Below are positions 35,290 to 37,058 of a stretch of 38,254 nucleotides of DNA, in pieces (positions within the stretch are counted from its first letter, which is position 1; every line of letters begins with the position of its first letter). The notes beneath the pieces were generated by a model. That model saw nothing but the letters and a program-made list of their open reading frames with translations, searched no databases and had not been told where the DNA came from. The translations under genes were made by a program, and so were the position numbers. The stretch comes from Pseudomonadota bacterium (GTDB lineage Bacteria > Pseudomonadota > Gammaproteobacteria > Competibacterales > Competibacteraceae), in contig JAUPTV010000251.1 in the NCBI GenBank assembly GCA_030917925.1, positions 1 through 38,254 on the forward strand. The letters run 5' to 3'.

Positions 35290-35511
35290 ATATGGCGTGA
35301 ATTTCCCTGTGAGGTAACAATATATCTCATTTTTTCGATATATAATCGAAAACACCCGGCTTCTAACGTTCACTGGGTCATCTAATGGCCATTTTAAATC
35401 ACTCCTGAACCTGGAGGGGCAATTTTTCCAGTCAGCCAATCATCGATAATCTTGCAATAGGGGTGTGAAGATTAGGGGATTTCGGAATACAATAATCGCT
35501 TCAACACAAGA
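35290..35511. other. Upstream region of pilS and of the HEARO-like element
   Basis: No credible gene is seen. It contains the inverted repeat at 35332-35352 near pilS and, on the plus strand, a TACAAT box at 35488-35493 with a poor -35 (GTGAAG, 35465-35470, 17-nt spacing). This could be the original sucC promoter, now upstream of the inserted element. Confidence 0.4.
35332..35352. promoter_or_regulatory. 8-bp inverted repeat upstream of pilS
   Basis: TTTTCGAT (35332-35339) and ATCGAAAA (35345-35352) are perfect inverted repeats around ATATA. It lies 43-63 nt before the pilS start, where a repressor or activator of the pilSR promoter would bind. The regulator is unknown. Confidence 0.45.
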
Positions 35512-35831
35512 GGGGGATGTACTCCACGTCAATCACCCCGCCCCAAAAGGCGAGGCTTGTGGTGGATAAAACCGCAAGCCTGGGTTGACCAGCCCAAGCC
35601 GTAACCAGTCGGCTACGTTGTGTATAGGTTAAAGACTCACCTTGGGACGCTTCCTCAACGCCAAGCTCTGAAAGTCCCGGTTGCAGACACGCTCAGGGTC
35701 AGCACGAAACGGATCGGGACGCGATGCCGGTACACAACAGGGGCGATGGGAGCGAGCCGCAAGGCTCCGTAACCAGGCTCTTACGAGCGGACAGTCGGGA
35801 AAGACCGGCATCTAACAACGGCTGACCGTTG
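35512..35831 (+). ncRNA. HEARO-like structured RNA (IscB omega-RNA type), copy 1
   Basis: The conserved core contains GGTTGACCAGCC, GGCTACGTTGT, GACTCACCTTGGG, AAGCTCTGAAAG and CAGGGTC, which I recall as features of HEARO RNA, the guide RNA of IscB nucleases. Visible stems are a terminal hairpin (35536-35542/35549-35555), P2 (35556-35563/35571-35578), P3 (35597-35601/35610-35614), a GNRA-capped hairpin GAGCC-GCAA-GGCTC (35754-35767) and CAACGG/CCGTTG (35816-35831). In IscB systems the guide is the roughly 16 nt just 5' of the element, here 35512-35527. No IscB ORF follows. The family name rests on recall and needs a covariance search; the structured, repeated nature is directly visible. Confidence 0.68.
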
Positions 35832-35891
35832 CGTTGCACGGTTCGCTATCCCTCCCCGGCGTGAACGCCGGGGTCTCTCGCGGAGAATCTG
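35528..35891 (+). mobile_element. ORF-less HEARO/ISC-like insertion element upstream of sucC
   Basis: The left boundary is inferred from where similarity to the second copy begins (GTCAA, then the CCCCGCC hairpin). The right end carries a perfect 8-bp hairpin, CCCCGGCG-TGAA-CGCCGGGG (35854-35873), like IS200/IS605-type transposon ends. The element stops directly before ATGA, which is also the sucC start, and HEARO elements are reported to sit just 5' of ATGA or GTGA. At about 364 nt it encodes neither IscB nor a TnpA transposase, so it would depend on proteins supplied elsewhere. Its last bases provide GGAG (35882-35885), the present sucC ribosome-binding site. Confidence 0.6.
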
Positions 35892-37058
35892 ATGAATCTG
35901 CACGAATACCAAGCAAAAGAACTGCTCCAGCAATTTGGTGTGGCGATTCCCAAGGGCATCAAGGTCACTTCCCAGCAGGAAGCAATTGAAGCCGCCAAGG
36001 AAATCAGCCCCAGTGGACCGTGGGTGGTCAAAGCCCAGGTCCATGCCGGCGGTCGCGGCAAGGCCGGCGGCGTCAAGTTCGTTCGCACCATTCAGGATGT
36101 TGAAGCGCAGGCCGGTCGGCTGCTCGGCTCGACCCTGCACACCCACCAAACCGGACCCGAGGGCGTCAAGGTTCACCAACTGCTGATCCAGGATGGCGTG
36201 GACATCGCCAAAGAATACTATCTGAGTTGCCTGGTGGATCGCAGCAAAAAGCGCGTCATTATCATCGGTTCTTCCGAAGGCGGTATGGATATTGAGGAAG
36301 TTGCCGCCAAGACCCCGGAAAAGATTCTGACCCTGGCCATTGATCCCATCGCCGGCTTCCAGGCTTATCAGGCCCGCGACCTGGGTTTCCGGATGGGCAT
36401 GGGCAAGAAAGAAATCGATCAACTGGTCAAAGTAGTGGGCGGCGTTTATAACCTGTTCGTCCAGAAAGATTGCAGCATGGTCGAAATCAACCCGTTGATC
36501 GTGACCGCAGACGGCCAGGTGATGGCGCTGGACGCCAAGGTCAGTGTGGACGACAACGCGACCTATCGGCACAAGGACACCGCCGAAATGCGCGATCCCA
36601 CCCAGGAAGACGAGCGTGAGCATATCGCCCACGAAATCGGCCTGAACTATGTGGCGCTGGATGGCAATATCGGCTGCATGGTCAACGGCGCTGGTTTGGC
36701 GATGGCGACCATGGATGTCTGCCAGTTGCATGGCGGCGAACCGGCCAACTTCCTCGATGTCGGCGGCGGCGCAACGGCCGAACGTGTGGCCCGCGCCTTC
36801 AAGCTGATTCTGTCCTCTTCCAAGGTCAAAGCGATTCTGGTCAATATCTTCGGCGGCATCGTTCGTTGCGACACTATCGCTGAAGGCATCATTGCGGCGG
36901 TCAAGGAAGTCGGTCTGACGTTACCGGTCGTCGTGCGCCTGCAGGGCACCAATGTGGAAGCCGGCCGCGAGATGCTGGCCCAGTCCGGCATGAACATTAT
37001 GGCCGCTGACGATCTCACCGACGCCGCCAAGATGGCAGTGGCCGCCGCTGCGAAGTAA
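35892..37058 (+). CDS. sucC: Succinate-CoA ligase (ADP-forming) subunit beta
   Basis: SucC is the nucleotide- and succinate-binding subunit of succinyl-CoA synthetase in the citric acid cycle. The 388-residue product has the expected length: an ATP-grasp domain ([13 protein letters not shown] from residue 51, EINPLIV) and a C-terminal CoA-ligase domain ([21 protein letters not shown]). The ATG at 35892 has GGAG 6 nt upstream, but that sequence appears to belong to the inserted HEARO-like element. The usual upstream genes sucA, sucB or mdh are not adjacent; pilS is the neighbour instead. sucD follows after 45 nt. Confidence 0.97.

Follow-up and report, generated by a model that had tools for sequence, protein, structure and literature searches.

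The window, the whole 38,254-nt stretch of DNA analysed here, carries a 364-nt mobile element that is inserted exactly between the Shine-Dalgarno leader and the start codon of sucC. We consider it probable that this is a non-autonomous element of the IS200/IS605 type, which carries only the guide RNA of IscB (HEARO RNA, or omega-RNA), and which would be mobilised in trans and held in place by its guide.

Borders and parts of the element

Both ends of the element follow from comparison with G005, a relative in the same genus with an empty sucC site, whose allele reads gagggggatgtactccac followed by ATGAATCTG, uninterrupted across the junction. Over a longer stretch G005 reads tacaataatcacttcaacacaagagggggatgtactccac and then ATGAATCTG; the leader in the window agrees with this but for 1 mismatch, and is followed by 364 nt and then ATGAATCTG. 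Since leader and ATGAATCTG are contiguous in G005, the borders fall at 35528 and 35891, exactly between leader and start codon. Compared with this empty site, the insertion duplicated no target and lost no base. In three of five same-genus relatives sucC was found (G001, G004 and G005); in all three the leader reaches the start codon directly, and covariance-model searches of their genomes gave no HEARO match. The features of the locus are:

35488-35493, + strand: putative -10 box TACAAT of the native sucC promoter, at the same place in the empty alleles of G001, G004 and G005
35510-35516, + strand: native Shine-Dalgarno-like GAGGGGG of sucC, now parted from the start codon by the element
35512-35527, + strand: presumptive 16-nt guide, the 3' part of the sucC leader and host DNA, identical in the G005 empty allele
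35528-35891, + strand: the 364-nt mobile element
35528-35758, + strand: HEARO/omega-RNA core (cmscan RF02033, full model 1-211, 102.5 bits, gathering score 83, E 3.5e-20)
35759-35853, + strand: 3' module of one stand-alone subfamily, with hairpins GCTC-TTAC-GAGC, GTCGGGAAAGACCGGC and ACCGTTGCGTTGCACGGT
35854-35873, + strand: right terminal hairpin, an exact inverted repeat CCCCGGCGTGAACGCCGGGG and the likely recognition hairpin of a Y1 transposase
35882-35885, + strand: GGAG near the right end, 6 nt before the sucC ATG; on direct reading a possible replacement Shine-Dalgarno
35892-35895, + strand: ATGA junction tetranucleotide with the sucC start codon; likely TAM of IscB and target of TnpA
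35892-37058, + strand: sucC, ADP-forming succinate--CoA ligase subunit beta (NCBIfam NF001913, residue 1 at profile position 1, 574.6 bits)

An earlier note on this DNA had described a highly structured element of roughly 364 nt at 35512-35891, with HEARO core motifs, a presumptive guide at the 5' border, a perfect right terminal hairpin and no nuclease or transposase ORF. Most of this description holds. The G005 empty site makes the length exactly 364 nt and retains the end at 35891; the start moves from 35512 to 35528, because 35512-35527 is host DNA, the presumptive guide. Folding of 35500-35960 (leader, element and the first 69 nt of sucC) was better than in 100 of 100 shuffles (z -3.59). 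The ORF list has no nuclease or transposase frame and no sense protein gene inside 35528-35891, and the ORFs of at least 60 aa that overlap the element are all antisense: one is 60 aa long, and two more, of 81 and 316 aa, run opposite to sucC and reach the element with their ends. The element thus lacks the IscB gene of an autonomous ISC/IscB transposon. The proposed guide, GGGGGATGTACTCCAC, is unbroken in the G005 empty sucC allele, where it is directly followed by ATGAATC, and G001 and G004 differ from it by a base or two near the junction. A guide at the 5' border therefore matches an empty target beside a candidate TAM, which was derived from the insertion sites. The hairpin at 35854-35873 is a perfect repeat, as described, and the core motifs proved to be those of RF02033.

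GAGGGGG is found in the empty alleles of G001 and G005 (GAGGGAG in G004), 11-12 nt before the ATG. The promoter of sucC was placed by conservation, since no sigma-70 -35/-10 pair passed the consensus scan.

The guide RNA core, the 3' module and the right end

The covariance-model search that the earlier note had suggested gave a significant, full-length match, well above the gathering score (102.5 against 83 bits), and RF02033 was the sole Rfam family to reach gathering level within the window; a different RNA family for the core was therefore rejected. Another family for the 3' module was likewise rejected, as a search of 35700-35950 at E up to 5 gave weak matches far below the gathering scores. 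Among 11 stand-alone HEARO cores, two-sided compensatory changes were found at 15 of 64 consensus pairs. Compared with IscB-linked cores of G032 and G009, the window core shows 93.5% and 90.5% identity, respectively; for the two IscB-linked cores of its own genome the values are 87.9% and 84.5%. In the tree the window core groups with IscB-linked cores of its family, and other stand-alone copies fall elsewhere. A single clade of stand-alone copies was rejected, because the tree needs several changes of this label, which suggests that IscB was lost (or regained) more than once.

The 3' module at 35759-35853 is common to 10 aligned stand-alone copies from three genomes, and it also follows a HEARO core of divergent sequence. 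Two such modules define two stand-alone subfamilies, and one of them is also found behind a very different HEARO core (L010, L011 and L013), that of L010 being 53% identical to the window core.

The right end consists of a hairpin CCCCGGCCTGAAGGCCGGGG followed by TCTCTCGCGnAnAATCTG or a close variant. This type of end is found in stand-alone HEAROs, in IscB elements and in the TnpA/TnpB elements on contigs C69 and C180 of the same genome, and a more diverged form is found at the Y1 locus on C38, so that the subterminal hairpin is shared with autonomous Y1 elements of the window genome. Read on the opposite strand, it is the end nearer to TnpA and has TCAT (HEARO/IscB) or TTAT (C69 and C180) before it, as the anatomy of IS605 elements would lead one to expect of a left end. 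The simplest reading is that a TnpA acts in trans on all three kinds of element, for which it would have to accept TCAT as well as TTAT. The right hairpin was also considered as an intrinsic terminator, and rejected because the terminator scan did not call it. GGAG or GGAA near the right end occurs in the subfamily of the window element; the G010 subfamily and, in the window genome, L001 and L003 have no GGAG, and a replacement Shine-Dalgarno as a general rule was therefore rejected.

Candidate helper genes and further copies

The window genome (G000; 4.2 Mb in 299 contigs) contains 15 HEARO matches, 13 of them above the cut-off, and three RRXRR/IscB genes with guided_IscB scores of 447.8, 449.6 and 330.5 bits (NCBIfam cut-off 175). 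The gene scoring 330.5 bits is cut by a contig edge and the other two, on contigs C157 and C207, are full-length. Two IscB genes stand directly after a HEARO, and one HEARO-linked IscB, compared with the PDB, matches solved IscB chains. HEARO and IscB are therefore associated at the level of the genome, the window copy itself not being adjacent to such a gene. Three Y1 transposases are also present, two in the TnpA/TnpB elements on C69 and C180 and the third on C38. The searches for IscB genes and for further copies that had been proposed in the earlier note were thus both productive, and its view of the element as a non-autonomous relative of IscB transposons gains from the right ends that IscB and TnpA/TnpB elements have in common. 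The presence of HEAROs, IscB genes, Y1 transposases and matching right ends in one genome points to a non-autonomous IS605-type copy, on which the helpers could act in trans.

HEARO matches were found in 13 of the 59 genomes searched, and above the cut-off in 7 of the 59. Two of the genomes, those of Candidatus Competibacteraceae CPB_C95 (G010) and Candidatus Contendobacter odensis (G013), are of one family with the window genome. Stand-alone copies occur together with an IscB-coding element in each of the five classified genomes (G000, G010, G013, G032 and G009; L036 of G032 was classified by reading), and several stand-alone HEAROs score above the IscB-linked HEAROs of the window genome.

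Docking at start codons

A scan for right ends that did not require ATGA gave 50, comprising 24 of HEARO/IscB elements, 7 of TnpB elements and 19 others, whose contents are unassigned or cut by contig edges and one of which is a chance match. Two of the 50 rows belong to one palindrome in Vreelandella nanhaiensis (L108, 2690-2770), in which a single terminal hairpin is flanked to the left and to the right by a right-end tail with ATGA behind it. The tetranucleotide after the right end is ATGA in 44 cases, ATAA in three, and ATGC, AGGA and AAGA in one each, AAGA being the chance match L081. ATGA follows all 24 HEARO/IscB right ends, against three of the 7 TnpB rows. Together with five clean empty sites, this describes insertion without duplication, with a fixed short target at one end; a target-site duplication was rejected, as none was seen at the empty sites of the five loci. 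The TnpA/TnpB elements on C69 and C180 (L020 and L021) are followed by ATAA and not by ATGA, and in Halomonadaceae and Microbulbifer three of five TnpB elements that close in this way have ATGA behind them.

At 25 of 31 HEARO/IscB right ends the junction ATG opens a frame of at least 100 aa, several of these frames running off the locus end, so that their lengths are lower bounds. The background was 272 of 1565 ATGA sites in the DNA analysed (17.4%; binomial 2.5e-14 for 25 of 31), counted over sites with closed frames only, some of which lie in overlapping loci and were counted more than once. The set of 31 consists of the 24 HEARO/IscB rows, in which the IscB pieces of L115 and L127 are counted, and of L003, L013, L027, L035, L043, L036 (as L137) and L133. 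The pattern by which L003, L013, L027, L035, L036 and L043 entered required ATGA and not a long frame, and L133 entered through a separate search; L134, cut by the locus end, was excluded, and two plasmid records are outside the 31. HEAROs at contig edges were left uncounted (L004, L006, L008, L014, L022, L028, L030, L041, L046, L052-L054 and the HEARO at the edge of L034), as were those with no recognised right end (L015, L026, L029, L031-L033, L037, L038, L040, L057-L062, L064 and L065).

Of the 7 TnpB elements that close with this type of right end, 2 have a frame of at least 100 aa starting at the junction (Fisher 0.014 against 25 of 31, on a small number). The same is true of 10 of the 19 other right ends, and docking may therefore not be specific to guide-RNA elements. 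In the window genome alone, 10 of 11 right ends are docked at a long frame; set against 278 ATGA sites, the chance of this is 5e-9, even if all of an estimated 33 or so genes of the window began with ATGA. Six of the 31 junctions lack a long frame (L013, L025, L043, L056, L115 and L133). In L013 (also L019 1-1040), a HEARO element lies beside a Y1 gene; on its right it borders on codons from the interior of a tnpB-like frame, the first codons of which were not seen on the other side of the element.

The frames opened at the junction are often known genes that natively begin there. Among 24 docked proteins scanned against profiles, the best or a listed match starts within the first 20 residues in 16: mdh, bioD, a RimA-like EAL protein, a corC-like protein, sucC, an MlaC-family protein, sixA, leuB, an AEC-type transporter, recD, a glutamine amidotransferase, cobI, lptA (its match being below the cut-off), ydiJ, a DUF2505 protein and a response regulator. 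The match starts later in six (mdoG, at residue 40, and PAS/GGDEF, DUF1269, HicB, HTH_3 and EAL/HDOD proteins), and the docked proteins of L042 and L027 gave no profile match. L027 and L130, from two bacterial families, are docked at the starts of similar-looking small genes (MTMDIRPIRTEADYEAALEE and MNIKPIRSDDDLRAAFQRLE), of which that of L130 alone matches HTH_3.

Empty sites were sought with one query joined from eight further flanks of the window genome. G005 has contiguous empty alleles of the corC-like gene, bioD, mdh and the AEC-type transporter gene, and the corC-like empty allele is also present in G001, G003 and G004. These alleles align at the ATG across the junction, with some indels in the leaders. 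The flanks of L003, L010, L011 and L007 gave partial matches only, and the left flank of L007 lies elsewhere in G005, not before leuB, which speaks against the main reading at that locus.

Six plasmid records had a match, of which five were examined. In Cupriavidus basilensis plasmid pRK1-2, the ATG at the junction of an annotated IscB element is the annotated start of a CDS, and the upstream CDS ends 35 nt inside the HEARO. An annotated CDS starts at the same junction in a Thiomicrorhabdus plasmid, and in three other Cupriavidus plasmid records no right end was recognisable. In L012 an upstream frame, argE-like by reading, has its stop within the HEARO as well (...PAS-SITPP*), and the stop codon of IscB shares bases with the ATG that follows. 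At about 673 in L016, the TGA stop of IscB and the ATG of the transporter gene docked there overlap (TGATG), so that translation of the two may be coupled.

Proposed mechanism and alternative explanations

We propose a series of linked steps by which such an element could live. A Y1 TnpA supplied by a TnpA/TnpB element would excise and insert it in trans beside T(C/T)AT (ATGA on the top strand), and with each insertion the new left flank would become the guide. The TnpA/TnpB elements of the window genome are themselves followed by ATAA and not ATGA, so that the use of ATGA by their TnpA is a supposition. As the element is docked between leader and ATG, the guide would be the host mRNA leader and is probably transcribed from the host promoter; the sucC promoter would give one RNA consisting of about 25-28 nt of native leader with the guide, the omega-RNA and sucC. 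An IscB made at another locus could then load the omega-RNA and cut unbroken leader+ATGA DNA, that is, sister chromosomes after excision and incoming empty alleles, and repair of the cut DNA would copy the element back, restoring it after excision. Docking at the start codon would spare the coding sequence and gain a promoter for free, and in the subfamily of the window element its own GGAG (35882-35885) could replace the displaced Shine-Dalgarno.

Whether this amounts to a transposon lineage specialised for start codons seems to us an evenly balanced question. In such a lineage the host promoter would make the guide RNA, the leader would be the guide, the ATG would be both TAM and transposase target, and the ends of the element would keep the operon working, with no need for a promoter, nuclease or transposase of its own; stop codons at the 5' end would serve overlapping upstream genes, and the 3' end would provide a Shine-Dalgarno in some subfamilies. 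The strongest competitor, to which we give somewhat less than an even chance, is that purifying selection alone produced the pattern, TnpA inserting at any ATGA and insertions inside genes being lost. L013, which abuts codons of a tnpB-like frame and hence a dispensable place, fits this explanation, as do ATGA junctions without a long frame among the other right ends. However, survivors of such selection should often sit at intergenic ATGA sites and in either orientation, whereas 25 of 31 lie in sense at the head of a long frame, and TnpB elements that share this right end do so in 2 of 7, a small number; the background count covers ATGA sites with closed frames in general.

It is unlikely that the element is a dead remnant of an IscB element, with its gene deleted and now neutral, immobile and unused. 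That it has no gene inside, and that the tree requires repeated loss (or regain) of IscB, are what a remnant would show; but stand-alone copies are numerous in the window genome, share exact ends and 3' modules across genomes, show compensatory changes in their cores and in several cases outscore the IscB-linked HEAROs of the window genome, and the sucC insertion is missing in all three same-genus relatives in which sucC was found. Slightly less likely still is a domesticated regulator, in which the HEARO leader, with or without bound IscB, tunes the translation or transcription of sucC: the element does occupy the 5'UTR itself, it ends with a GGAG that resembles a Shine-Dalgarno sequence, and its position is the same at many genes, but the docked genes have no evident theme (mdh, bioD, mdoG, recD, cobI), and those identified are not the same from one genome to the next, which is what a mobile element should give, with no site seen in two species.

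The reading of a trans-mobilised, guide-retained element offers a testable answer to how a guide-only OMEGA element could live: its promoter would come from the docked gene, its tolerance by the host from the start-codon site and built-in translation signals, and its retention would be accounted for by a guide that equals the empty site. It would also mean that, in these bacteria, the 5'UTR beside some start codons consists of a mobile guide RNA, and the docked copies would supply the small IscBs of Competibacteraceae and Halomonadaceae with a natural series of differing guides, for which ATGA is the predicted TAM.

Relation to known systems

With HEARO RNA (RF02033), the omega-RNA of IscB, the window element shares a full-length model match, a guide at the 5' border and the presence of IscB in the genome; it differs in having no IscB gene, in its stand-alone 3' module and in its position, directly before the start codon of a host gene to which it is unrelated. 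Like other stand-alone omega-RNAs, it is a guide RNA without an adjacent nuclease gene. Here, in addition, the mobile unit, its empty site, transposase-type ends and start-codon docking are defined, with overlap with a 2021 study possible. That study, by Altae-Tran et al., is presumably reference 4 of the IsrB paper. Short, gene-less derivatives of IS605 elements that are mobilised in trans, MITEs or palindrome-associated, are a further likeness, trans mobilisation being what is proposed here; unlike them, the window element has a complete structured guide RNA, with a guide that changes at each insertion. It shares with IS200/IS605 TnpA/TnpB elements the right end of its genome's own copies, the lack of a target duplication, a flank-derived guide and the logic of retention, and differs in carrying neither gene, in its IscB-type guide and in its junction (ATGA, against ATAA in the TnpA/TnpB elements of the genome). 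HEARO elements at ATGA or GTGA may reportedly be found already in Weinberg et al. 2009, and Kapitonov et al. 2016 are said to describe ISC transposons.

Several components of the proposal are thus known, namely stand-alone omega-RNAs, ATGA-type TAMs and guide-driven retention. Passages of the IsrB paper state that stand-alone omega-RNAs work with IscB in trans (PMC9581776, attributed to its reference 4), and that IsrB, a related nickase, cut targets with TTGA and ATGA TAMs, NTGA being known (PMC9581776). Guide-driven retention and gene drive are described for IS200/IS605 TnpA (Y1)/TnpB elements (PMC11870625). Few HEARO nucleases stand beside TnpA, according to PMC9755519, as would be expected if mobilisation occurs in trans. 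In the literature covered, which included passages of PMC13180657 and PMC12286853 and had the founding papers outside its scope, no account of docking at start codons was seen.

Related repeats elsewhere

The phage collection gave no match. Two viral contigs of IMG/VR (L133 and L134) carry HEARO elements that close with the type of right end described above, and an IscB-like ORF was read in L133. At the edge of contig C18 in the window genome, the left flank of L011 is a 110-nt repeat that recurs, 99-100% identical, at four more sites of G000 (C19, C30, C34 and C138). G010 has a second set of HEARO-like repeats with other ends and no IscB in sight (L057-L062, on contigs C51, C110, C72, C32, C17 and C35), some of which, judged by eye, seem to lie tens of bases upstream of likely gene starts without abutting them.
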